From contig NC_013922.1 of NCBI RefSeq assembly GCF_000025625.1, positions 434,001-498,000 of the forward strand: DNA of 64,000 bases, given 5' to 3'. A program made the position numbers and the translations under genes. This DNA is from Natrialba magadii ATCC 43099. Its GTDB lineage: Archaea > Halobacteriota > Halobacteria > Halobacteriales > Natrialbaceae. Of the stretch, positions 24,937-57,994 are shown piece by piece. Under the pieces are notes generated by a model. That model had not been told where the DNA came from and did no database searches. It worked only from the letters and a program-made list of their open reading frames with translations. The number at the start of each line of letters is the position of its first letter. Position 1 is the first letter of the stretch.

Positions 24937-25011
24937 GCTCCGATGGTGTAGTCCGGCCAATCATATTGCCCTCTCACGGCAATGACCAGGGTTCGAATCC
25001 CTGTCGGAGCA
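24937..25011 (+). tRNA. tRNA-Glu (CTC)
   Basis: Cloverleaf visible: acceptor GCTCCGA pairs with TCGGAGC (25004-25010), the anticodon stem TTGCC/GGCAA encloses CTCTCAC with anticodon CTC at 24973-24975, and the T arm is CAGGG-TTCGAAT-CCCTG. Discriminator base A at 25011. CCA is not encoded and there is no intron. Its 3' part is the left attachment site of an integrated element. Confidence 0.95.
24968..25011 (+). repeat. attL: 3' end of tRNA-Glu
   Basis: 44 bases from the anticodon stem to the discriminator, matched at 30361-30404 with two mismatches (at 25000 and 25010). The first 32 bases are identical. The tRNA folds correctly with this copy, so the incoming element rebuilt the gene's 3' end. 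Confidence 0.85.
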
Positions 25012-25109: not shown

Positions 25110-25181
25110 GCCGTCTTGCGATTCCGCTGCGTCGTGGGGCAATGAAGTTCAAGGGGAAAAATCGGCCGCCGTCTTGCGATT
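25110..25181. repeat. Direct repeats before the integrase gene
   Basis: GCCGTCTTGCGATT occurs at 25110-25123 and again at 25168-25181, a 58-base spacing, between attL and the integrase start. Three GGCAATG copies lie in the same stretch. Position and form suit arm-type binding sites for the integrase or an accessory factor. Confidence 0.55.
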
Positions 25182-25230: not shown

Positions 25231-26358
25231 ATGAAAGACGCCGACCAGGCAACCGACCCCCTCGAAGACATCACGCTCATCCATGGGCCGACAGAAGAAT
25301 TACTAAATGAGCGACAGTACCTTGACTACCGGAGTGAGCGAGAACAGTGCCTTGAGTGGCTGCTCGCATTCGGCATCGATCCGAAGACAGCTGACGGGTA
25401 CGCAAAAACAACCGTCAGCAATCGCGCGTACCGAATGGGGCAGTTCTACCGCTGGGTTTGGGAGCAAGAAGGCGGATACACGACGAACCTCACTCACGAC
25501 CACGCTGACAATTACTTGCGTCACTTAGCCGGGCAACAAAAATCAAACGCGCACAAGAATTCGTGCCGGAAGGCCCTGATGATGCTCTACAAGTGGCGCC
25601 ATCATCAACGCGGTGCAGACAAGTGGGAGCCAGAGATTACGTTTTCGCGGAAAAACCAGTCAACGACGCCACGGGATTACTTAACACGCGGAGAGCGGAC
25701 TGCCATCCGCGACGCGTCATTAGAGTACGGAAGTGTTCCTCGTCGTGATAGCGTCTACGGTGACGAACGAGACCGGTGGGTTGCGTACCTGGCGCAACGA
25801 TTTGAGAAGCCGAAAGCAGACGTGACGGAAGCGGACTGGGAACGCGCGAACAAGTGGAAGACACCAAGTCTTGTCGCCGCGAGCCTCGATGGTGGGCTTC
25901 GCCCGATCGAGGTTGAACGCGCACGAACGTCATGGGTTGACGTCGATAATGGTGTGCTTCGAATCCCGAAAGAAGAATCCTCGAAGAATGCGGAGCACTG
26001 GATCGTCAGTCTTCAGACCCAGACTGTCGAGATGCTGGATCGGTGGTTGACGCAACGAGCGACGATCGAAAAATACGATGACACGGATGCGCTTTGGTTG
26101 ACGAGGCGGAGCAATCCGTACCAGTCCGCGTCGCTTCGAAGTTTGCTCCACCAGCTCTGTGAAATTGCAGACATCTCCACTGAGAACCGCCAGATGAGTT
26201 GGTACGCCATCAGGCACTCGACAGGAACCTACATGGCTCGTGAGGAGGGACTCGCGGCCGCTCAGACTCAACTCCGCCACAAGTCGCCAGAAACGACGAT
26301 GAAGTACGATCAAGCTCCAATCGAAGATCGGAAGAACGCGTTAGATCGAATGGGGTAG
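25231..26358 (+). CDS. Tyrosine recombinase/integrase
   Basis: 375 residues. An N-terminal SAM-like DNA-binding region (DPLEDITLIHGPTEELL, RAYRMGQFYRWVWEQ) precedes the catalytic domain. Arg224 (GGLRPIEV), the box-II arginine Arg328 (WYAIRHSTGT), a histidine in LRHKSPETT and the nucleophile Tyr359 (TMKYDQA) are in place. The first His of the usual HxxR is Tyr, which I believe is common in haloarchaeal integrases. ATG 25231 follows a good GGAGGT six bases upstream; an earlier in-frame start at 25174 would cut into a direct repeat. It most likely integrated this element into tRNA-Glu. Confidence 0.92.
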   Translation: MKDADQATDPLEDITLIHGPTEELLNERQYLDYRSEREQCLEWLLAFGIDPKTADGYAKTTVSNRAYRMGQFYRWVWEQEGGYTTNLTHDHADNYLRHLAGQQKSNAHKNSCRKALMMLYKWRHHQRGADKWEPEITFSRKNQSTTPRDYLTRGERTAIRDASLEYGSVPRRDSVYGDERDRWVAYLAQRFEKPKADVTEADWERANKWKTPSLVAASLDGGLRPIEVERARTSWVDVDNGVLRIPKEESSKNAEHWIVSLQTQTVEMLDRWLTQRATIEKYDDTDALWLTRRSNPYQSASLRSLLHQLCEIADISTENRQMSWYAIRHSTGTYMAREEGLAAAQTQLRHKSPETTMKYDQAPIEDRKNALDRMG

Positions 26359-26378
26359 TTCGGCTCTGTTGAAATCCT
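26359..26378. repeat. Left inverted repeat (IS6-like end)
   Basis: TTCGGCTCTGTTGAAATCCT directly after the integrase stop; its reverse complement with one mismatch lies at 29920-29939. GGCTCTGTTGAAA resembles the ends of IS6-family insertion sequences (compare IS26 GGCACTGTTGCAAA). No transposase gene lies inside. Confidence 0.7.
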
Positions 26379-26635: not shown

Positions 26636-26806
26636 ATGCGTAATCAAGACGCAATTTTCGATACAAAGCAGCATATCAGTACTACCAGGGATATCCGTGG
26701 CCAGCCACTTTCCGAACTAGTGCTCAGCCTGCTCGACAGCGCCTTTGCCGGCGTCCTTTGTGGGTCTGAACGGAGGAACCGATATGGAGAACGCAAGGCA
26801 CGCTGA
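26636..26806 (+). CDS. Small ORF 1 (56 residues), related to small ORF 2
   Basis: Starts MRNQDAIFDTKQHIS and contains LSELVLSLLDSAFAGVLCG. The stretch SLLDSAFAGV matches SLLDSAFSGV in the 47-residue ORF before mgtE, and the DNA similarity continues through a GGAGGAAC ribosome site into an overlapping ATG. Both ORFs sit 26-34 bases after a TATA box. Here the overlapped downstream frame (ATG 26784) ends after 32 residues (MENARHAEQAASLRIKHTFG...), so this copy seems to be the remnant of a duplicated leader-plus-gene unit. It may be a leader peptide; unproven. Confidence 0.5.
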   Translation: MRNQDAIFDTKQHISTTRDIRGQPLSELVLSLLDSAFAGVLCGSERRNRYGERKAR

Positions 26807-26882
26807 GCAAGCCGCTTCCTTGCGGATCAAGCACACCTTCGGATCTGAAAGTCACGACCACGGACACGTCGTTCCAGAGTAA
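26784..26882 (+). pseudogene. Truncated gene after small ORF 1
   Basis: ATG 26784, preceded by GGAGG at 26772-26776, opens a 32-residue frame that overlaps the end of small ORF 1 just as mgtE overlaps small ORF 2. It ends in HDHGHVVPE and has no recognisable domain. Probably the 5' stub of a lost gene. The 250 bases that follow carry no credible ORF. Confidence 0.35.
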
Positions 26883-27091
26883 CCAATGTCTCTTGAGCGA
26901 CGTGTCCGGCTTTGCCAGCGACTGCTACCTCGGACGTGTTGGAACGGGTGGCAGGTGACACGAAGAGCCATGCGGCTGCTGCGGTGTCGATCTGCCCACC
27001 TCCGTTGAACGGCAGAGCTACCCCACTATACGCCCCAGCGGACCTCGCGTCCGCCCTGTAGGTCACCCCTCGCGCATTCATTCCATGATTA

Positions 27092-27108
27092 AAATCGTTG
27101 TATTTAAT
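27092..27108 (+). promoter_or_regulatory. Promoter of small ORF 2/mgtE
   Basis: AAAATCGTTGTATTTAATA: A-rich BRE-like stretch and TTTAATA (27103-27109) about 28 bases before ATG 27135, again suggesting a leaderless start. Confidence 0.6.
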
Positions 27109-27134
27109 ACAGACAACTTCTCATCCCAAACCGT

Positions 27135-27278
27135 ATGTGGGAATCCAATCACCACTCACAGCTGAACAGTGCGGAGAGCTCCACGATCCCGACCCTCGAA
27201 GAACAAGTTCGCAGCCTGCTTGACAGCGCGTTCTCCGGCGTCTTCTCGCCAGCTCAGGAGGAACACTATGACTGCTAA
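27135..27278 (+). CDS. Small ORF 2 (47 residues) overlapping mgtE
   Basis: Starts MWESNHHSQLNSAESS and continues TIPTLEEQVRSLLDSAFSGV to end HYDC. Its last codons overlap the mgtE start: mgtE ATG is at 27268 while this frame stops at 27278. A strong AGGAGG (27256-27261) for mgtE lies inside it. Ribosomes finishing this ORF would sit on the mgtE initiation region, so translational coupling or leader-peptide control is plausible. The SLLDSAF motif is shared with small ORF 1. No known family recognised. Confidence 0.55.
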   Translation: MWESNHHSQLNSAESSTIPTLEEQVRSLLDSAFSGVFSPAQEEHYDC

Positions 27279-27996
27279 CACACCCGCAGACGAGTTTGAG
27301 AACGAGACCGAAGAATCGACAGCAAACGAAGATGTGGAACTGCTCGCTGACGGCGGAGTCACCGACACCGGAGCCAAGACCACTGGTGGCGGGATCTCTA
27401 TTCGTGGTGAGAATATCAAGGACGCGGAGCTGACGCGCAGTGAGCTCATCCTCTCCTCGTCACTGCCAAAGAAAATTTGGCTCCGCCTTCCGTGGTTGCT
27501 TGTTGCACTGGCTGGTGGCCTTCTGGCTGGCGGGGTTATTGGTACTGCTGAAGGTACACTGGAGGCAGCCGAGATCGCACTGCTGGCCATTTTCGTCCCA
27601 GTGATCATGGACATGGGTGGTAACGTCGGTACCCAGGCGTCCACAATCTTCGTCCGTGGACTCGCAACCGGACACATTGATGACAAGAACGCGATGAAAC
27701 ATCTCGCCCGAGAGGGCGTCTTTGGAGTCGTCATCGGCCTCATTATCGGGACCATTGCCGCAACCATCGCACTGGTCTGGCAGGATAATGCAGCGCTGTC
27801 GATGGTGCTGTTCACCGCTCTGTTGACGGTCTGTACGGTCGCCAGTGTGTTTGGATATCTCATTCCGTGGGTCGCACACAAGCTGGGATTCGACCCTGCT
27901 GCGGTTTCCGACCCCGTTGTGACGACGTTCAAAGACCTTACCGCCGTGCTCATCTACTTCGGCTTGGCAATCTGGCTGCTCCCGGGGGCGCTATAA
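27268..27996 (+). CDS. MgtE-type Mg2+ channel, membrane domain only
   Basis: 242 residues. After about 95 hydrophilic residues come five hydrophobic segments with MgtE signatures: FVPVIMDMGGNVGTQASTIFVRGLATG and the last helix DPVVTTFKDLTAVLIYFGLAIWLL, whose TTFKD aspartate corresponds to the selectivity-filter position. The cytosolic N domain and CBS pair of normal MgtE are absent from this chain; a separate CBS-pair gene follows three bases later. By family it moves Mg2+ (perhaps Mn2+ or Co2+) into the cell. ATG 27268 with AGGAGG is firm. Confidence 0.88.
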   Translation: MTANTPADEFENETEESTANEDVELLADGGVTDTGAKTTGGGISIRGENIKDAELTRSELILSSSLPKKIWLRLPWLLVALAGGLLAGGVIGTAEGTLEAAEIALLAIFVPVIMDMGGNVGTQASTIFVRGLATGHIDDKNAMKHLAREGVFGVVIGLIIGTIAATIALVWQDNAALSMVLFTALLTVCTVASVFGYLIPWVAHKLGFDPAAVSDPVVTTFKDLTAVLIYFGLAIWLLPGAL

Positions 27997-27998
27997 AG

Positions 27999-28415
27999 AT
28001 GACCGGAACCGTTTCCGAACTCGTCTCAGACGAGTTTCAGACCGCAGACCCCACGACCACCGTTGACGAGGCTATCGACCTCTTCCGCGACCGAACACCG
28101 TCGGAAGAAACGACGCTGTATTACCTGTACATCGTTGACGGCGACGAACTCAGTGGGGTTGTCTCGCTCAACGAGTTGCTGAATGCCGAACGAACGGTTT
28201 CAGTCGGGGAAGTCATGGCGAGCGATATCCGGACGGTTTCGACCGACTCACCGGTGGCTGACGCAGTGGACATCATCTCCGAACAGGGGTTCCCTGCGTT
28301 GCCGGTAGTTGATGGTTCGAAACTCGTCGGCGTCATCCGAGCGAGTGACCTGATTGACGCAGCCGAAGAGGAAGAGACGCTCACCGCGCTGAAAAAAGCC
28401 GGCTTCTGGGTGTAA
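27999..28415 (+). CDS. CBS-pair protein, MgtE regulatory domain as separate chain
   Basis: 138 residues, two CBS motifs: ADPTTTVDEAIDLFRD with YYLYIVDGDELSGVVSLNELL, then MASDIRTVSTDSPVADAVDIISEQGFPALPVVDGSKLVGVIRASDLID. These are typical of the CBS pair inside MgtE, where Mg2+ binding closes the channel. It starts two bases after the mgtE stop, so the two are almost surely one operon and probably one complex. The MgtE N-terminal superhelical domain is missing from both chains. Confidence 0.85.
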   Translation: MTGTVSELVSDEFQTADPTTTVDEAIDLFRDRTPSEETTLYYLYIVDGDELSGVVSLNELLNAERTVSVGEVMASDIRTVSTDSPVADAVDIISEQGFPALPVVDGSKLVGVIRASDLIDAAEEEETLTALKKAGFWV

Positions 28416-28644
28416 CACACCTCGCCCCGGCCTATCCAGAGGCAACGTTCCTCCACCGGGAGTGGTCGTGTATATCGACAGCCGAACACTGATGATACCT
28501 GGCTTTCTGGCCGCTATCAGATAGGTGCGATCCTGTGAGATCCGCCTGTGTTGGCGCTGCTGACGGTCAAGCGATGTAGCCCAATATTGGAACGACACTA
28601 CCAGCGATGTTCACTCCACTGACTCAAGCTCACAACACAACACT
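28416..28644. other. Spacer between CBS gene and PhoU gene
   Basis: 229 bases, no ORF of note. AATATTGG near 28582 could be part of a promoter for the PhoU gene. No T-rich terminator is obvious. Confidence 0.3.
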
Positions 28645-29313
28645 ATGCCGCGAGAAAGCTACCAACAAGAACTCAAGACGCTCCGTGAGGCGGTAATCGA
28701 GATGGGCGAGCTCGTCCACACGCAGTTCGACCGCTCTGTGACAGCCCTCGCTGACCACGATACGGAGTTAGCCCGCCAAGTCATCGAAAGCGAAGAACGA
28801 ATCAACGAGCGCTATCTCAAGATCGAACGCAAATGCATCGACCTGCTGGGACTTCAACAACCGGTTGCCAGCGACCTTCGGTTCGTCGCCGCGTCGTTCA
28901 AGATTAGCACCGAACTCGAACGTATTGGTGACATCGCGGTGAAGATCGCCGAACGGACGGAAGCCGGCCTACCGGCGATGGACCCCGATGTCGATATTCC
29001 ATCGATGGCCCAGGAGAGTGCGACGATGGTCGCCGATGCAATCGACGCCTTCGGAGCTGCCGACACGAACGCATGTCGAGAAATCATCGCCCGCGACGAC
29101 CAGATTGATCAACTCGCAAAACACGCGAGCCGACAGGTCTTCGGCGAAACAACCACCCTCGACACCGAAGCCGTCAACCCCGACGAGTACCATGAAGACG
29201 TTCTCCGGCTCTTGCTCACCATCACTGACATTGAGCAAGTCGCCGATCACGCGACGAACATCGCTGCTCGGACAGTCTATATGGCGACCGGGGACGACAG
29301 TCTCCTTGAATAA
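28645..29313 (+). CDS. PhoU-domain protein of the integrated element
   Basis: 222 residues of two three-helix PhoU repeats, each with the acidic metal-binding pattern: LQQPVASDLRFVAASFKISTELERIGDIAVKIAE and RLLLTITDIEQVADHATNIAARTVYM. It is clearly related to the chromosomal PhoU at 50752-51423 (both start SYQ..L..LRE and share LQQPVASDLRF). PhoU proteins usually modulate phosphate uptake or signalling. Here no phosphate transporter is nearby, and the partner may be the MgtE/CBS pair. Normal length, no damage. Confidence 0.87.
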   Translation: MPRESYQQELKTLREAVIEMGELVHTQFDRSVTALADHDTELARQVIESEERINERYLKIERKCIDLLGLQQPVASDLRFVAASFKISTELERIGDIAVKIAERTEAGLPAMDPDVDIPSMAQESATMVADAIDAFGAADTNACREIIARDDQIDQLAKHASRQVFGETTTLDTEAVNPDEYHEDVLRLLLTITDIEQVADHATNIAARTVYMATGDDSLLE

Positions 29314-29330
29314 TACCACCTCACTGGGTT

Positions 29331-29774
29331 TTAGGAACCTCGTTCTGGTGTCTTTGGGCTTCGTTCACAGCCAGTACCCTGCTTGGTCGTCTGTTCGTCG
29401 AGAGTGTCGATGATGTTATTCGCCCGAACGACGCCGCTGAACTGGCCCGATTCATCGACGACGGGAAGTATGGCAAACCCGTTCTCGATGAATTGATGAA
29501 CCGCGTGCTGTAGCGAATCCGGCGTGGTGACGGTCACGAGATCGGTCGTCATAATTTCGGAGACTGGGTCGCTGCCCTTTGCGTTCAGTAGTTCCCGCAT
29601 TGAGACGACGCCCACGAGTTCGCCATTGTTTCGCACGTAGACATAATAGACGGAAACGCCGTCATCAACAGGTGGAAACTCCCGTACTTCGGTGATCACC
29701 TGATCGACGGTGACCTCCGTGTTGACACTCACCGTCTGGTCGCTACTGATAGTGTGAGGTGTGGGTTGAGCCAT
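29331..29774 (-). CDS. CBS-pair protein 2
   Basis: 147 residues, convergent with the PhoU gene (17 bases between stops). Two CBS motifs: VTVDQVITEVREFPPVDDGVSVYYVYVRNNGELVGVVSMRELLNAKG and MTTDLVTVTTPDSLQHAVHQFIENGFAILPVVDESGQFSGVVRANNIID. It parallels the first CBS protein in length and order (both have GVVS.(N/R)ELLNA), so the two are paralogues. A CTTTAAC box about 30 bases before the start on the minus strand suggests its own leaderless promoter. It may be a second regulatory subunit for the split channel. Confidence 0.83.
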   Translation of the reverse strand: MAQPTPHTISSDQTVSVNTEVTVDQVITEVREFPPVDDGVSVYYVYVRNNGELVGVVSMRELLNAKGSDPVSEIMTTDLVTVTTPDSLQHAVHQFIENGFAILPVVDESGQFSGVVRANNIIDTLDEQTTKQGTGCERSPKTPERGS

Positions 29775-29919: not shown

Positions 29920-29939
29920 AGGGTTTCAACAGAGCCGAA
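29920..29939. repeat. Right inverted repeat (IS6-like end)
   Basis: Reverse complement of 26359-26378 with one mismatch (19 of 20). Together they bound a cassette of about 3.6 kb. Outside both ends, GGTAGT-like sequence continues the similarity after a two-base offset. Confidence 0.7.
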
Positions 29940-30360: not shown

Positions 30361-30404
30361 GCCCTCTCACGGCAATGACCAGGGTTCGAATCTCTGTCGG
30401 AGTA
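30361..30404 (+). repeat. attR: duplicated tRNA-Glu 3' end
   Basis: Copies 24968-25011 with two C-to-T differences, one in the T stem and one in the acceptor stem, so the stretch can no longer serve as a tRNA end. It marks the right boundary of the integrated element. Confidence 0.85.
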
Positions 30405-50751: not shown

Positions 50752-51423
50752 TCAATAAATCAGTTCGTCGTCGTTCTCCACCATATACAGCGTCCGTGCG
50801 GCAATGTTGACCGCGTGGTCACCAACCCGCTCTAGATCCCGAATCGTGAGCAACAGCCGAGAAACATCCTGGAGCAACCGCTCGACTTCGTCGGGGGACT
50901 CGAGTTCCCGTTCGATGAGGTCGCGGACGACGATTTCGCTTGCCCGTTCGGCGAAGTGGTCGAGGTCGTCGTCGCGATCTGCTAGCTGCCGACAGCCGTC
51001 GGTGTCCTCGGTGTCGTAAGCGACCATGGCGTCCTCGATCATATCGAGGGTCATCTCGCCCATTTCCTGGACGTCCACGTCGGGGAAGAGATTGTGTCTG
51101 GCGTTGAGGGTGTACTCGCCGAGGTTGACCGCGAGATCGCCGATCCGCTCTAGGTCGGTGATGATCTTGAACGAGGCAGCGATGAATCGGAGGTCACTCG
51201 CGACAGGCTGTTGGAGCGCGAGCAGTTCGATACACTGCTGCTCGAGGTCGAGATACATCTGGTTGACCTCGCTGTCGCCGGTGATCACTTCGTTCGCGAG
51301 GTCCTCGTCTTTCTGTTCTAAGGCGTCGAGCCCCATGCGAAGTCGTTCCATCACGACTTCGCTCATGTAGAGGATGTCCTCGCGGAGTTCCGTGAGCTTC
51401 TCCTGGTACGATTGTCTGGCCAT
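50752..51423 (-). CDS. phoU: Phosphate signalling protein PhoU
   Basis: 223 residues, two PhoU helical bundles with the repeated metal motif (LQQPVASDLRFIAASFKIITDLERIGDLAVNLGE; RLLLTIRDLERVGDHAVNIAARTLYM). It should restrain Pst uptake when phosphate is plentiful. It is on the same strand as pstSCAB but split from pstB by an HNH gene on the other strand, so it needs its own promoter. AATATTTATC (about 51449-51457) lies some 30 bases before ATG 51423. Longer upstream frames are a shadow of the HNH gene. Confidence 0.93.
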   Translation of the reverse strand: MARQSYQEKLTELREDILYMSEVVMERLRMGLDALEQKDEDLANEVITGDSEVNQMYLDLEQQCIELLALQQPVASDLRFIAASFKIITDLERIGDLAVNLGEYTLNARHNLFPDVDVQEMGEMTLDMIEDAMVAYDTEDTDGCRQLADRDDDLDHFAERASEIVVRDLIERELESPDEVERLLQDVSRLLLTIRDLERVGDHAVNIAARTLYMVENDDELIY

Positions 51424-51612
51424 ACTGCAGACAGCACGCCGGTCACTGATAAATATTGGTAGCGGTCGGCACGTTGTGCAACGGTTTCGGGCACCTGTTG
51501 TCGCATGCGCGTTCAGGTGTAATACGTGTCGAAATCCGACAGACGGCGCGCCAGACCGGGAAATCGCTGTCGGTGCGCCTTTGCAACTCCGCCACGTAGG
51601 GGTCTGAAAGCG

Positions 51613-52461
51613 ATGGGTGATGGGACCATCTCGGGATCGAATCGAGACGAGTCCGTTTACACAGGTTCGAGCGACCGCGGTGACGACAGCCGTAGCGATG
51701 ACAACCGTCGCAACGGTGACGACAGCGACAACGGGAACGACGACAGCGACCACGGACACGACGACAACCGTGGCTACGGCGACGGCTGGGAGGAACTCCG
51801 CCAGCAAACACTTCGCCGGGACAACTACGCCTGCACCCGCTGCGGCGCAGACGACCGCACGCTCCAGGCCCACCACATCGTCCCGCGCTCCGCCGGCGGC
51901 CCCGACGAACTCGAGAACCTCCTTACGCTCTGTCGACCCTGCCACGGCGTCATCCACCAGCACAACAGCGCCTTCGACGACGTTCGCGACGACGCACCGC
52001 TCTTTCCCGAGCGAACCGCACCCGACCCCGTCGCCCGGTTGCGGACGCCGGCCGATCAGTGCTGTACACGCTGTGGGGCCGAACGCAGCGATCCGACCGA
52101 ACTCGTCGCCTGGACGGACGTGCCAGCTAGCGACGACGCCCGCCCGGCCCCGCCGCACGTTACTCTCTGTAAACCCTGTGCCGGACTGCTTCTCGAGTGC
52201 GACCTGGCGTGCGAGGAAGCCGCCCTCACTGCGAACCACACGATTTCGGTGCACGAACTCGCGGCTCGCCGACCCGATGCGTCCGTTCGACCGAGCGCCT
52301 TTGCGCTCTCACAAGTTGCAGTTCGACGCGAGCCACGGACGCTCCGCGAGCGCGTCGTCGACGACACGCCGTTGCGATTTCTGCTGAATCACCGCGGTGT
52401 CCGTCTGGCGCTGCTCGTCGTGATCGGCTACGTGGCATTGTTCGTCGTGCTGGCGCTGTAG
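51613..52461 (+). CDS. HNH endonuclease-like protein with C-terminal membrane helix
   Basis: 282 residues. The N-terminal 55 are Asp/Asn/Ser-rich. The HNH core is WEELRQQTLRRDNYACTRCG, LQAHHIVPRSAGGPDELENLLTLCRPCHGVIH, with catalytic HH and CxxC zinc knuckles. A second zinc-like site follows (CCTRCGAE; LCKPCAGLLLECDLACEE). The extreme C-terminus, RLALLVVIGYVALFVVLAL, is a membrane helix, unusual for a nuclease. It sits opposite the Pst genes. ATG 51613 is chosen over a start at 51526. Nuclease activity is inferred only. Confidence 0.78.
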   Translation: MGDGTISGSNRDESVYTGSSDRGDDSRSDDNRRNGDDSDNGNDDSDHGHDDNRGYGDGWEELRQQTLRRDNYACTRCGADDRTLQAHHIVPRSAGGPDELENLLTLCRPCHGVIHQHNSAFDDVRDDAPLFPERTAPDPVARLRTPADQCCTRCGAERSDPTELVAWTDVPASDDARPAPPHVTLCKPCAGLLLECDLACEEAALTANHTISVHELAARRPDASVRPSAFALSQVAVRREPRTLRERVVDDTPLRFLLNHRGVRLALLVVIGYVALFVVLAL

Positions 52462-52491
52462 CTACGATCCAGCCTGTCGTGTGGGTGAAAC

Positions 52492-52570
52492 CTGCAACCG
52501 AGACGTAACAAGACAAACTCGAGACTGCAACCGAGACGTAACAAGACAAACTCGAGACGCAACAAGACAG
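52492..52570. repeat. 33-base tandem repeat
   Basis: A 33-base unit (52492-52524) is repeated exactly at 52525-52557, and a third, partial copy begins after it. A second pair, starting ACAGAACAAACCGCA, lies at about 52567 and 52605. All are in the gap between the stops of the HNH and pstB genes. Confidence 0.85.
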
Positions 52571-52639
52571 AACAAACCGCACCGAAACGCCAGCGGATGG
52601 GCTGACAGAACAAACCGCATCGAGACTCCAGAGAACGGC

Positions 52640-53677
52640 CTATCCGAACTTGCCCGTAATGTAATCCTCGACCCGGTCGCTCTCGGGATTCTCGAAGATT
52701 TTGCTCGTGTCGTTGAACTCAACGAGGTGGCCCCCCGTGAGGAAGACCGCCGTCTTATCCGAGATGCGGGCCGCCTGCTGCATGTTGTGCGTGACGATCG
52801 CAACCGTGTACTCCTGGGCTAACTCCTCGACCAGATCCTCGATCTTCGAGGTCGCAACCGGGTCGAGCGCAGAGGCCGGCTCGTCCATCAGGATTACTTC
52901 CGGATCCGTCGCAATCGCACGGGCGATACAGAGGCGCTGTTGTTGCCCGCCCGAGAGATCCAGTCCGCTCTCGTCTAACTGGTCTTCGACCTCGTCCAGC
53001 AACGCCGCACGCTCGAGTGCGGTCAGTACTTTTTCCTCGACGTTTTCGTCCTTGCCCTGCACCCGGAGGCCGTAGGCGACGTTGTCGAAGATGCTCTTCG
53101 GGAACGGGTTCGGCTTCTGGAAGACCATGCCGATCTTGCGACGGAGGGCGACGGGGTCGACGTCGTCTTCATAGACGTTCTTCCCGTGGAAGTGGAGATC
53201 TCCCTCGACGCGAGCCACGTCGATGAGGTCGTTCATCCGGTTGATCGAGCGCAGGAACGTCGACTTCCCACAGCCGGAGGGGCCGATGAGGGCCGTGACT
53301 TCCTTCTCGGGGATGTCCATGTTGATCCCGTGGAGGGCCTGCGTGTCGCCGTAGAAGACGTCCAGATCGCGGGCTTCGATGACGGCGTTGTCGACGCGGG
53401 GCGAGCCAAGCGGCTTATCGCCAGCCGGCATGGAGAGGCCGGCTCCCGACTCACCGGCTGCGGCCGTCTGTGCCGACGCAGCCGCGCTGGCACTTGAATC
53501 GGACGCCGACCGCTGGCGGTTCACCGATTCTGATTCGCTACTGGCCGCTGTGATTTCGGGCGGCTCCGTGTTCGCACTCCCAGGCGTGCCTGTGAGAGAT
53601 CCATCGTTTGCGTTTGGGCGGATCGACGATAGCGCCGATCGGAATCCAGCAAGTCGACCGTCCGTCTGGTCGCTCAT
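52640..53677 (-). CDS. pstB: Phosphate ABC transporter ATP-binding protein
   Basis: 345 residues. The ATPase (from about residue 97) has Walker [22 protein letters not shown], signature [16 protein letters not shown], Walker [14 protein letters not shown] and H-loop [26 protein letters not shown] identifies PstB. An extra N-terminal 95 residues, Ser/Ala-rich, lack homology to the ATPase fold. Unlike pstSCA it has its own upstream region (143 bases), which carries a conserved promoter element. Confidence 0.94.
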
Positions 53678-53701
53678 TACCACTGTTGTGCGGTCGGATG
53701 C

Positions 53702-53741
53702 CTAAATACCATACTATGTCATCTATATAGTGCTATAGTCG
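53702..53741 (-). promoter_or_regulatory. Pst promoter element before pstB
   Basis: TAAATACC, TACTATGT, ATCTATATA and CTATA blocks in the same order and spacing as at 56822-56861 before pstS. It includes TATA-like sequence on the minus strand 30-60 bases before ATG 53677. Probably a phosphate-responsive promoter; haloarchaeal pst promoters with such A/T-rich boxes are known in Halobacterium. Confidence 0.7.
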
Positions 53742-53820
53742 GACACAGTGACTGTGACAGTGGTGACTGGACGAGTGGGGTACTCGAGTAAAAACTACTG
53801 ACGGCGGTTGGCCAGCGTGA

Positions 53821-54834
53821 CTACGACCGTTTGTCGTACTTGTTCCGGATGAGGATCGCAACGGCGTTCATGAGCAGGAGGATCGTCAGCAGGACGACGA
53901 TCCCGGCTGCGGCGACGTGCTGGAACTCTGCTTCGGGCATCTTCGCCCACTCGTAGATCTGCATGGGCATTGCGCCGAACGAGCCCGTCGGATCCGTCAG
54001 ATCTGGTGGGGTGAACATCGTCGTCGCAGCACCGACCATCAGAATCGGTGCGGTTTCGCCGATTGCCCGGGAAAGCGAGAGGATGATCCCGGTCATGATT
54101 CCCGGCACGGCTTCCGGAAGCACGACGTTGCGGATGGTCTGCCACTTCGTTGCGCCTGCGCCGTAGGAGGCCTGTCGCATCGAGTCCGGTACCGCTCGCA
54201 GGGACTCCTGGGACTGGACGATGACGATCGGTAAGATGAGTAGCGTCAGCGTCAGCGCACCGGCGATGAGACTCGCGCCGGTCTGCATCGCGCGGACGAA
54301 CACGGCGAGTCCGAGCAGTCCGTAGACGATCGACGGGACGCCCGCGAGATTCGAGATGTTGGCCTCGATGAATCGTGTAAGGTTCGAATCAGGCGCGTAC
54401 TCCTCGAGATAGATCGCAGCGCCGACCCCCAGGAAGAGGGTGAAGATCGCCGTCATGATGATCAGGTAGATCGAGCCGATGATCATCGGGTACATGCCGC
54501 CGGGGCCGGTCGCCAGCTCGCCGTAGTTGCTCGGAACGTAGTTCTCGGCGATCTGGGACGGCGGATACGTCAGGAACTCCCAGGTGAGCCAGCCACGGGC
54601 CTCGAGGAGGACGTCCGCGAGGAGGGCGACCAGTGCGACGATGCCGACCATTGTCGCGGCGAAACACAGCCCGAGGAAGATCGTCCCGAGCTGGTGTTTG
54701 CGTTTGATCGACGAGCCGTCGAAGTCGAAGTCGAGGTCGTCGCCGTCGGGATCGCCGCCCGGACTCGAGGTCGTGGTCGTGGTCGTGGTCGTGGTCGTCG
54801 TGGTGCTCGTGTTTGTATCCGTGTTGGTACTCAT
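53821..54834 (-). CDS. pstA: Phosphate ABC transporter permease PstA
   Basis: 337 residues, six membrane segments, with the permease EAA loop [35 protein letters not shown] and a [12 protein letters not shown] stretch typical of PstA. The first 50 residues are hydrophilic and contain a run of 12 threonines coded by a GTGGTC-type repeat (54766-54806, plus-strand reading). ATG 54834 overlaps the pstC stop (ATGA). Confidence 0.93.
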
Positions 54835-55754
54835 TCGTATTCCTCCCGGTAGCGCGACCGAATCCACATACTGAGTACGTTCATCAGGAACGTCATCGCG
54901 AACAGCGTCAGACCAATCGCGAACAGGCTCTGGTAGCCGATCGAACCGACCGAGGCGTCACCGGTTCCGATCTCGACCATGTACGCCGTCATCGTCTGAA
55001 TCTCGGCGAACGGATTCATCGTCACCTGTGCGAGTGCGCCCGCTGCGAGTGTGACAGCCATCGTCTCGCCGATGGCCCGCGAAATCGCGAGCACGTACGC
55101 GGCGAGAATGCCCGATAGCGACGCCGGTAGCACGACCTGCGTCGAAACCTCGAACTTCGTTGCGCCCAGTCCGTAGGCGGCGTTGCGAAGCGAGTCGGGA
55201 ACGGACGACATCGCGTCCTCCGAGATCGACGAGACCATCGGGATGATCATGACGCCGACGACGATCGCCCCCGCAGCAGCGTTGAAGGTCCCCGTACCAG
55301 GGTATATTTGCTGGAGAATCGGGGTGATAAACGAAAGTGCGAAGAAGCCGTAGACGATGGTCGGAATCCCTGCGAGGATCTCGAGTGTTGGCTTCACCAC
55401 GCGGCGGACACGCGAGCTTGCGTATTCGGAGAGGTAGATCGCGGTCAGCGTGCCGATCGGAATCGCGATGAGCGCCGACCCGACCGTGATCATCATCGTC
55501 CCCCAGACGAGCGGCAACACGCCGAAGCTTGGGTTGTCAGCTGCCCGTGGTGACCAGTCGGTGCCTGTAAAGAACTCGGTGAGCGAGACGGTCGAAAAGA
55601 AATCCGTCGCGCCGTTGACCAGGACGAGCACAATCGCGAGTGTCGTCGCAACGGTAACAGCGGCACATCCAAAGAAGATGTAGCGAGCGAGCCGATCCCC
55701 GATCGTCCCCACGTCGTTTCCGTTCCGGCTGAGATCTATGGGTTCCGTACTCAT
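54831..55754 (-). CDS. pstC: Phosphate ABC transporter permease PstC
   Basis: 307 residues, six membrane segments; EAA loop [34 protein letters not shown], and [17 protein letters not shown]. The extracytoplasmic loop [30 protein letters not shown] is the PstC hallmark. Start overlaps the pstS stop by four bases (ATGA), so translation is coupled through pstS-C-A. Confidence 0.94.
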
Positions 55755-56797
55755 GTGTAGTCCTCGATTGCGGCCTCCAGTGTCTCCCGCTGGTCCGCGA
55801 TAGTTTCGTCGGGAACCGCGTAGAACTGGACCTCACGCGCAGTCTCCTGGGTGTTCTCGAGATAGAAGCGAACGAACTCGCGGTACTCCGGTCGAGCGAG
55901 TTCATCGCGTCGGACGTAGATGTACATCGGCCGAGAGAGCGGCTGGTAGGCCTCGGCTTCGATCGACTCCCGGGTGGGAACGATACAATCGTCCCACTCG
56001 TCGCCAGGGTCCTCACCATCCTCGTAATTGACCGCGATGAGCTCTGCGTCCGCCTCGTTCTCGTAGTAGTAGCCAGCCCCACCGAACCCGATCGTGTACT
56101 CGTTGCCCCTGACGCCACGAATGATGTTGTTGGTGTCGGGTGTGCCGCTGTAGTCGTTGCGGATGTTCCCGACGGATCCAGTGATGTGCTCAGTGAAGTA
56201 ATCGAACGTTCCAGAGGCGGCGTCGCGGCCGTAGAACGAAATTTCCTCGTCGGGCCACTCCTCGTCGGACTGCTCGGGCTCGAGATCGGCCCAGGTCTCG
56301 ATGTCCGAACCGCGCTCCCAGAGGTCGCCGAGTTCGTCGACGGTGAGACACTCACACCAGTCGTTGTCGGGGTGTTTCAGGAGTGCGATGCCGTCGAGGA
56401 CGACCTCGAGTTCGAGCCACTCGACGCCGTTCTCGCGACAGTGTTCGGCTTCCTCGTCCGTGATCGGCCGACTCGCGTTCTGGAGCGAGATTTCGCGTCG
56501 GGCGAACTGCTGGAAACCGGCACCGGTTCCCGAGGCGCTGACCGACGCCTGCACCCGATTGTTCTCCCACATGAACTGCTCGGCGACGAGAGCACTGTTC
56601 GGTCTGAGCGTATTCGAGCCGTCGATTCGAATTTCCCCCTCGAGCCCGCTGTCTTCCCCACGTGTGAGACAGCCTGCAAGGCCAGCGAGCGTCGAGCCGG
56701 AAACGCCGAGTAAAACGCGCCGACGGGTTGTCGACAGCGATCCGGAACCAGACCGCGACCCCCCATCAGAGCGACCTGTTATCGGCTCATTTCCCAT
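55751..56797 (-). CDS. pstS: Phosphate-binding lipoprotein PstS
   Basis: 348 residues. Tat lipoprotein signal: STTRRRVLLGVSGSTLAGLAGC, with lipidated Cys near 43. The fold shows EIRIDGSNTLRPNSALVAEQF, ASGTGAGFQQFARREISLQNASRPI and RDAASGTFDYFTEHI, which contain the phosphate-contacting Ser/Thr and Asp positions. First gene of pstSCA(B). Confidence 0.94.
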   Translation of the reverse strand: MGNEPITGRSDGGSRSGSGSLSTTRRRVLLGVSGSTLAGLAGCLTRGEDSGLEGEIRIDGSNTLRPNSALVAEQFMWENNRVQASVSASGTGAGFQQFARREISLQNASRPITDEEAEHCRENGVEWLELEVVLDGIALLKHPDNDWCECLTVDELGDLWERGSDIETWADLEPEQSDEEWPDEEISFYGRDAASGTFDYFTEHITGSVGNIRNDYSGTPDTNNIIRGVRGNEYTIGFGGAGYYYENEADAELIAVNYEDGEDPGDEWDDCIVPTRESIEAEAYQPLSRPMYIYVRRDELARPEYREFVRFYLENTQETAREVQFYAVPDETIADQRETLEAAIEDYT

Positions 56798-56821
56798 CGT
56801 TTGACTAGTGCGGAGATGACG

Positions 56822-56861
56822 TCTAAATACCCTACTATGTTATCTATATATCTCTATATGG
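56822..56861 (-). promoter_or_regulatory. Pst promoter element before pstS
   Basis: The A/T-rich block matches the one before pstB almost base for base (TAAATACC, TACTATGT, ATCTATATA). It lies 25-64 bases before ATG 56797 on the minus strand. The divergent regulator gene has a separate TTTATGCATA box (56970-56979). Confidence 0.72.
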
Positions 56862-56998
56862 GCCAATCGATGACAGTGTGGAACGGTTCTGCACAATATC
56901 CCTTCCCAGCGTATAATAACCTCTCTGCGGGAGAACAGCGCAATACGTCCTCCTATAGATCCACGTGGGTTTATGCATAGGCACGCAAAACTGGGGCT

Positions 56999-57994
56999 AT
57001 GGAGACGCGCAAGGTGCAGGTAACTGGCGGGTCAACGTATACCGTTTCGTTGCCCAAAACGTGGGCGACCGAGAACGACGTCAGCGCCGGGACAACGGTC
57101 GAGTTCTATCCAGAGGACGACGCACTGTTGCTCACTCCCCAGAGCGAAACGGATCGCCAGGAAGGAACGCTCGACGTCTCGGATCTCGAAGGTGAACGCC
57201 TGACTCGAGCCGTCATGACGATGTACGTCAGCGGCTTCGACATCATCCGCCTCGAAGCGAACCGGATCACAACTCACCAGCGCCGTGCAATCCGCAACGC
57301 AACTCAGAGCCTCGTCGGCGTCGAAGTACTGGAGGAAACAACTGACAGCGTCGTCATCCAAGACCTGCTCGACTCCTCTGAACTCTCGATCGTCAACGCC
57401 GTCTCGCGCATGCGACTCATCGCGAGTTCGATGCTCTCAGACGCCGTCACGGCCCTCATCGAAAACGACGACGACATCGCTCGCGACGTCATCCAGCGCG
57501 ACGACGACGTCGACCGCCTCTGGCTCGTCGTCTCGCGCATCTTCCGCGCCACGCTTCGCTCCCCCCGCGCCGCCGAAGAACTCGGCGTCCCCCGTGAGGA
57601 CTGCTTCGACTACCACTCGAGTGCACGCCAACTCGAGCGGGTTGCCGATCACGCGGCGAAGATCAGCAACCTTGCCCTCAAACTTGACGAGATTCCGGAG
57701 TCGGTTGCGGAGGGGCTGGTAGCGCTACAGGAGGATGCCTCGGACGTCCTCGAGAAGTCGATGGATGCGCTGGTTGCGGAGGAGTCGGCGGAGGCGAACG
57801 AGTTGGGCCATGCGGCTCGCGAGGCGGTGCTCGATATCGACGAGCATACGCGGACGATCGACGATATGTTGCGGGATCTCGAACCAGTGCAAGCGCAGTC
57901 GCTTGGGTTGATCGTGGACTCGTTATCGCGGAGTGCGGACTACGGTGGGAATATTGCGGAGACGGCGTTGCAGAAGGCAGCACCGCGGCCGTAG
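56999..57994 (+). CDS. AbrB/SpoVT and PhoU-domain regulator
   Basis: 331 residues. The N-terminal swapped-hairpin AbrB-type domain METRKVQVTGGSTYTVSLPKTWATENDVSAGTTVEFYPEDDALLL binds DNA; the rest is PhoU-like helices (SMLSDAVTALIENDDDIARDVIQRDDDVDRLWLVVSRIFR; HSSARQLERVADHAAKISNLAL). Such proteins are called phosphate uptake regulators. It is divergent from pstS, 201 bases apart, and well placed to control it. TTTATGCATA at 56970-56979 gives a leaderless start. Confidence 0.9.
   Translation: METRKVQVTGGSTYTVSLPKTWATENDVSAGTTVEFYPEDDALLLTPQSETDRQEGTLDVSDLEGERLTRAVMTMYVSGFDIIRLEANRITTHQRRAIRNATQSLVGVEVLEETTDSVVIQDLLDSSELSIVNAVSRMRLIASSMLSDAVTALIENDDDIARDVIQRDDDVDRLWLVVSRIFRATLRSPRAAEELGVPREDCFDYHSSARQLERVADHAAKISNLALKLDEIPESVAEGLVALQEDASDVLEKSMDALVAEESAEANELGHAAREAVLDIDEHTRTIDDMLRDLEPVQAQSLGLIVDSLSRSADYGGNIAETALQKAAPRP

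Follow-up and report, generated by a model that had tools for sequence, protein, structure and literature searches.

The window analysed here, a 64,000-nucleotide stretch of the 4.44-Mb genome of Natrialba magadii (G000, C1:434001-498000), carries an integrated element whose cargo joins a split MgtE magnesium channel to two leader open reading frames (ORFs), genes for separate CBS-pair proteins and a gene for a PhoU protein. The reading that we favour, although we hold it at somewhat less than an even bet, is that haloalkaliphilic Natrialbaceae possess in this cassette a second, specialised and mobile Mg2+ channel module, which would be less autoinhibited, controlled by its leaders and matched to phosphate uptake by PhoU. 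An earlier note on this DNA had instead taken mgtE, the two CBS genes and phoU as one homeostasis module in which a channel is gated by exchangeable CBS subunits and PhoU. The features on which our reading depends are the following.

26636..26806, plus strand: leader ORF A, 56 codons, with a Shine-Dalgarno (SD) sequence GGAGGAAC and another ATG at its end; ORF unbroken in all six cassettes; profile match E 5e-22
27103..27109, plus strand: TATA-like box (TTTAATA) about 26-32 nt before leader ORF B; A/T-rich box at similar distance in other copies
27135..27278, plus strand: leader ORF B, 47 codons, stop inside mgtE with an 11-nt overlap
27268..27996, plus strand: mgtE, transmembrane (TM)-only, 5-TM MgtE domain lacking N domain, CBS domains and plug helix; PF01769 E 2e-35 over the full model; PDB match 8h5e E 1e-24
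27999..28415, plus strand: cbs1, CBS pair with degenerate plug helix, split-off part of CBS-TM MgtE; two PF00571 domains, E 2e-23
28645..29313, plus strand: phoU, two PhoU domains, cassette-specific clade; two PF01895 domains, E 8e-45; TIGR02135 E 3e-54
29331..29774, minus strand: cbs2, second CBS pair, convergent with phoU; PF00571-type pair, E 5e-19

Distribution of the cassette

We surveyed 125 Natrialbaceae genomes and 392 genomes drawn from the order, two sets that overlap. TM-only MgtE (at least 76% identity) was present in six of the 125 and in no further genome among the 392, and the cassette-type PhoU (at least 79% identity) was found in exactly the same six Natrialbaceae genomes: N. 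magadii, G088, G079, Natronococcus amylolyticus, Natronococcus sp. A-GB1 and Halobiforma nitratireducens. In all six cassettes the genes follow one order: leader A, leader B, mgtE, (cbs1), phoU. Judged by blast of their flanks, they occupy four contexts, namely that of N. magadii, that of G088, a site beside aconitase in the two Natronococcus genomes, and one that H. nitratireducens shares with G079. The conserved gene order that the earlier note had proposed to look for in other genomes therefore exists for mgtE and phoU but does not extend to the CBS genes, since cbs1 stands directly behind mgtE in four genomes and is lost in the other two, and cbs2 is linked to the cassette only in N. magadii and G088. 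All six genomes also retain a fused CBS-TM mgtE, including N. magadii (L071). Named genomes carrying these genes are mostly those of haloalkaliphiles or soda-lake bins.

A conserved leader ORF overlaps mgtE

Small ORFs of 47-64 codons precede both split and fused mgtE genes. There are two in this cassette, leader A lying 500 nt upstream of the related leader B, and a third in the same genome before the fused mgtE. Their peptides share an N-terminal motif, MLDTNHSS, and the core TLEELxLDLLEGEFAGVI. A profile search found the leader in 36 of the 125 Natrialbaceae genomes, with at least one copy in each of the 32 that have a fused mgtE. In three genomes without fused mgtE (G110, G113 and G117; L086, L087 and L085), a mini-ORF stands between the leader and an MgtE half-pair to which it is chained; two of them (G113 and G117) show an ATGA overlap in this chain. 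In G116 the leader lies at a contig end. Every placed copy is directly upstream of an MgtE-superfamily gene and overlaps its start or is chained to it. In nearly all fused cases the leader stop falls just inside mgtE, and the SD sequence and start codon of mgtE lie within the last leader codons. Outside Natrialbaceae, three weak order-level matches lay inside or across unrelated genes and were set aside as chance; no match to a known family was obtained in NCBIfam or PHROGs.

The ratio of nonsynonymous to synonymous substitution rates (dN/dS) was 0.24 for leaders of fused mgtE, 0.26 for leader B and 0.55 for leader A, from sequence pairs that are not independent. The other two frames are interrupted by stops in some of the sequences, and a comparable constraint is absent from them. 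This coding signature is that of the conserved short ORF of a leader-peptide regulated operon, and translation is predicted. In the 38 copies listed, the leader ATG is preceded, at a distance of about 25-32 nt, by an A/T-rich TATA-like box, from which a leaderless mRNA is predicted. The earlier note had started its interval at 27135, which is the ATG of leader B, and had not described these conserved overlapping leaders.

The same selected amino-acid sequence could also be that of a functional small protein with a role in trans, MgtE stability being one example, and not that of a regulator in cis. Selection along the whole length of the leader, including MLDTNHSS, and the helix predicted in its core are in line with this possibility. 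However, the structure predicted for the leader contains that one helix (residues 21-32) and no other element, with most of the chain predicted to be disordered, and no copy was found elsewhere than directly upstream of MgtE-superfamily genes, so that we consider a small protein rather unlikely.

Three other devices were considered for this region and rejected. No known riboswitch is present, as Rfam matches nothing but tRNA. An RNA switch in the leader of fused mgtE was discarded given a weak consensus fold in which 2 of 23 pairs changed on both sides. As to a programmed frameshift that would fuse the leader with MgtE, their offset is always +1, yet a conserved slippery site was not noticed, and the SD sequence and ATG are conserved. 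Two further observations concern the space between the leaders. The stretch at 26807-27134, after leader A, contains an ORF of 28-33 codons opened by the internal ATG of leader A, with no gene behind it, possibly a remnant of a second fused mgtE start. It also holds the following hairpin, whose covariation is weak, slightly above that of shuffles in six related sequences, and which we keep as a weak candidate.

26861..26909, plus strand: hairpin between leader ORFs A and B, 18 bp; 91.7% of cells paired, compared with 29-45% when slid by 1-3 columns

The channel has lost its Mg2+-sensing clamp

The earlier note had described the mgtE product as a membrane domain devoid of N and CBS domains, and this proved correct: PF01769 is the sole domain detected, and neither the N domain nor the CBS-plug is in the same chain. 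Because no other domain is found and the protein reaches 140 bits against TIGR00400, below the cut-off of 232.75, it belongs to the TM superfamily and not to the full-length MgtE equivalog. Its N-terminus is an acidic, disordered tail of 46 residues. D223 is invariant and aligns with D432, the Mg2+-binding pore residue of Thermus MgtE, so the pore ligand is retained. The predicted structure (mean pLDDT 72, pTM 0.66) has a helical membrane part and a low-confidence N-terminal start of 48 residues.

The positions given in that note for the CBS-pair gene, 2 bases behind mgtE, and for the PhoU gene after it were likewise confirmed. The second CBS-pair gene is also real; what had been omitted is that it lies on the minus strand and therefore cannot share an operon with mgtE, cbs1 and phoU. 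This strand, together with the linkage of cbs2 in only two of six cassettes, leaves the idea of a single four-gene module unsupported.

With Thermus residue numbering taken from an alignment to PDB 2yvx, we compared the Mg2+ ligands of six fused proteins with those of four intact CBS1 copies. The equivalents of E216, E258 and D259 are kept in all six fused proteins, whereas in all four CBS1 copies they are replaced by A, by L, M or I, and by T or S, respectively. The D226 equivalent is D in the fused proteins (E in one) and G in CBS1, and that of R187 is kept in the six fused proteins and is N or T in CBS1. In Thermus MgtE, either exchange, E258Q or D259N, keeps the Mg2+-induced change from being completed (PMC5882242), and the phosphates of ATP are contacted by R187 (PMC5529423). 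The E258/D259 pair of gating ligands is thus missing from CBS1.

The CBS genes are also decaying in places. The cbs1 gene is deleted in G088 and reduced to a multiply broken pseudogene remnant in N. amylolyticus, and the C-terminus of N. magadii cbs2 diverges by a frameshift from the G088 copy. Measured against the N. magadii copies, dN/dS was 0.10-0.22 for mgtE and 0.13-0.22 for phoU. Where cbs1 is present, its dN/dS of 0.31 indicates purifying selection.

These data bear on the proposal that separate CBS1 and CBS2 proteins bind MgtE in trans and gate it in response to Mg2+, PhoU being one more subunit. CBS1 is under constraint and is the cognate CBS-plug half encoded directly behind mgtE in four genomes, and both CBS proteins best match the CBS part of TIGR00400. 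Nevertheless, CBS1 has been lost twice while mgtE and phoU remained constrained, the E258/D259-type plug-helix ligands have gone from every intact copy, and cbs2 is sparsely linked, on the opposite strand and frameshifted in N. magadii. Loss of cbs1, loss of its ligands and decay of cbs2 speak against CBS subunits as obligatory gates, and we regard gating in trans as improbable; the exchangeable gating subunits of the earlier note are not borne out.

Regarding the origin of the channel, residues 5-136 of CBS1 and residues 47-238 of the TM protein align contiguously with fused CBS-TM MgtE, which places the split point after the plug helix, with the order of the parts permuted. In a 50-row tree the split TM clade was monophyletic (100/100), with a long stem, nested among fused haloarchaeal MgtEs, and support for its sister relation was 91/84. 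On the simple reading, alignments and tree show that split MgtE arose once, from the fused CBS-TM MgtE of the family, and then changed fast.

Other MgtE arrangements were observed during this analysis. Many Natrialbaceae have a pair of MgtE half-genes (~190 aa each) divergently transcribed beside fused mgtE (L038, L039, L042, L063 and others, at about 7.0-8.2 kb). MgtE proteins 45-62% identical to a haloarchaeal one occur in soda-lake bins labelled Myxococcales, Thermoplasmata, Nealsonbacteria and Clostridia (L043, L049, L036, L061, L064), reflecting either lateral transfer or misbinning.

A PhoU clade travels with the channel

Cassette PhoU scored 183.8 bits against TIGR02135, above the cut-off of 130.25, and E/DxxxD-type motifs can be read in it as ELERIGD and DIEQVAD. 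It belongs to a divergent clade and shares 48% identity with the nearest two of the other PhoU proteins in its own genome. The gene begins 229 nt after cbs1, a spacing that ranges from 70 to 250 nt across cassettes. No pst gene is present within the element, and cassette phoU is not linked to pst. Elsewhere in the window, at 50752-57994 and ~21 kb from the element, there is a pst-type phosphate ATP-binding cassette (ABC) transporter operon (ATPase, two permeases and a binding protein, PBP; pst genes at 52.6-56.8 kb) that has a PhoU ORF of its own; next to it, a divergent fusion of a MazE-type DNA-binding domain to PhoU is encoded at 56999-57994.

PhoU might bind and gate the TM-only MgtE directly, in place of the lost CBS gate. 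Its retention in all six cassettes, even where CBS1 has been lost, and the divergence of its clade would suit such a role. Against it, PhoU is encoded by a separate gene at a variable distance, and no precedent was found in the open-licence papers searched, which makes this alternative unlikely as well.

The cassette lies on a tRNA-targeted integrative element

The 5393-bp element sits between tRNA-Glu and ppc and is integrated in tRNA-Glu. Its boundaries and mobility features are listed below.

24937..25011, plus strand: tRNA-Glu (CTC), the integration target, with attL at 24968-25009; ARAGORN, Rfam, 42-bp repeat and empty site
25231..26358, plus strand: tyrosine recombinase (integrase), ATG start; PF00589 E 9e-17; PHROG integrase E 4e-24
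26362..26378, plus strand: insertion sequence (IS) terminus at the left cargo end, from an IS resident in the same genome; repeat with 16 copies there
29920..29936, minus strand: IS terminus at the right cargo end; repeat
30361..30402, plus strand: attR, repeating the 3' part of tRNA-Glu; 42-bp repeat

The att sites (24968-25009 and 30361-30402) match at 98% over 42 bp, and an alternative TTG start is possible for the integrase at 25174. The empty site is found in the Natrialba genome G044, in which an identical tRNA-Glu is directly joined to the same ppc flank. Integrase, att repeats and empty site are all in place, and the G+C content of the element is 53-57% compared with 60-66% in its surroundings. 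The integrated element inferred in the earlier note is hence well founded, and mobility is supported in N. magadii as well as in G088, where integrases flank the cassette on both sides. At the tRNA-Glu/ppc site of two further Natrialba genomes, G045 (C9) and G046 (C1) (L121, L122), we observed other arrangements, apparently other insertions, a pattern that suggests an integration hot spot.

Inverted IS ends stand on either side of the cargo, at 26362 and 29936, and some copies of this terminus bound a 1470-bp IS elsewhere in the genome that encodes a DDE_Tnp_1 transposase and a DUF4870 passenger. A clean IS-borne cassette was rejected: the 8 bp flanking the IS ends are mismatched, and recent transposition of the cargo as a single IS unit is therefore unsupported. 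Separately, two inverted 1470-bp IS copies at C1 805523-806993 and 1209444-1210914 (L099-L102) have swapped 8-bp flanks (tatcgaat, ggttataa), which indicates an inversion of the intervening ~404 kb. A search for plasmid-borne copies yielded no close relative, every match being below 60% identity with a coverage of at most ~55%, and a defence role for the element was dropped after PADLOC gave no match.

That the cargo is a passenger, selfish or neutral, in which IS and integrase merely carry duplicated housekeeping genes that have no function of their own, is very unlikely, for despite the IS ends, the att sites and the decay of CBS1 and CBS2 in places, mgtE and phoU are under strong purifying selection between genera and the unit is conserved in some chromosomal contexts where no integrase was found around it.

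Proposed mechanism

As read from the sequences, the cassette channel would work without a covalent Mg2+-sensing clamp and beside a separate CBS partner that has no Mg2+ ligands. Because clamp and ligands are lost, it would probably stay open at cytosolic Mg2+ levels that close ordinary MgtE, and an open channel would help in Mg2+-poor brines. Soda brines are such brines. Control would shift to expression. The leader would be translated first on the predicted leaderless mRNA, and since it overlaps the ribosome-binding site and start codon of mgtE, ribosome traffic through it may set mgtE translation. Here the gene architecture and the selection on the peptide are observed, whereas coupling is suggested by the strict coupling of most overlapping Haloferax pairs tested, and the response to a signal is presumed. 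The co-inherited PhoU, judged from PhoU function elsewhere, may restrain phosphate uptake or adjust it to Mg2+ supply; we regard a Mg2+-phosphate coupling through PhoU as plausible.

Several points weigh against this second-channel module. The constraint on cbs1 (dN/dS 0.31) implies a function for CBS1, and some regulation of the channel may persist. The acidic N-tail of MgtE could hold an unrecognised regulatory site. The variable spacing behind cbs1 means that phoU may have its own promoter. The target of PhoU, moreover, could be the channel and not phosphate uptake. The leader, too, could act as a small protein and not as a cis sensor.

The split channel is a natural experiment in which the Mg2+-sensing clamp of an MgtE was cut off and then partly discarded, and its co-inheritance with PhoU offers a testable case in which horizontal transfer would couple Mg2+ and phosphate homeostasis. 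With a leader that can be recognised from its sequence, has a mapped distribution and is consistently paired with its gene, ribosomal Mg2+ sensing through a nascent peptide becomes testable in archaea.

Comparison with known systems

Enterobacteria are known to control Mg2+ transport through leader peptides. In the open-licence papers searched we found no archaeal case, no paper on an archaeal mgtE leader and none on PhoU acting with MgtE; the main text of the N. magadii genome paper mentions neither MgtE nor PhoU. A very low magnesium requirement has been described for the haloalkaliphile Natronomonas pharaonis (PMC4931456).

The closest relatives of the cassette channel are the fused CBS-TM MgtEs of Natrialbaceae (C1:2230506-2231090 in the same genome and 31 more genomes of the family), its parent family, which have the same overlapping leader ORF. 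They differ in carrying the CBS-plug ahead of the TM domain, with ligands intact, and in having one leader and no linked cassette-type phoU. Thermus thermophilus MgtE (PDB 2yvx, 2zy9) shares the 5-TM channel fold and the pore aspartate, and CBS1 matches its CBS-plug region. In contrast to the Thermus protein, the cassette channel has no N domain, and its CBS-plug is encoded by a separate downstream gene, lacks the Mg2/Mg3 ligands and has R187 replaced.

For the leader, overlapping gene pairs of Haloferax, in which coupling was strict in most cases tested (PMC6728339), provide the model of termination and reinitiation: start and stop codons of co-directed genes overlap and ribosomes reinitiate on the downstream gene. 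Here, however, the first ORF of the pair is no more than a very small conserved leader, and the overlap is about 11-17 nt instead of ATGA/TGATG. In E. coli mgtL-mgtA, ribosomes drop off the acidic residues of a short leader peptide at low Mg2+ (PMC11282234). The Natrialbaceae leader recalls mgtL in that both peptides are acidic and precede a Mg2+ transporter, a likeness from which the sign of any Mg2+ effect through its acidic core cannot be read; mgtL is short and carries EPDP at its start, whereas the archaeal leader has 47-64 codons, overlaps its gene and has an internal acidic core. The Salmonella mgtCBR leader contains two short ORFs (PMC3641672), and MgtC acts on phosphate transport (PMC6658541). 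Like the cassette, mgtCBR combines a Mg2+ transporter, two short leader ORFs and a link to phosphate, a likeness of design and not of descent, as proteins and leaders are unrelated and the bacterial system uses transcription attenuation and a P-type ATPase. More tentatively than for the second-channel module itself, we suggest that the Natrialbaceae nascent-peptide leader, on a leaderless mRNA and overlapping its gene, may be a sensor of Mg2+ (or energy) for MgtE, and that its mobile version, in which two leaders are combined with a PhoU and with a channel released from autoinhibition, could be what archaea have evolved by convergence as a counterpart of mgtL-mgtA and mgtCBR.

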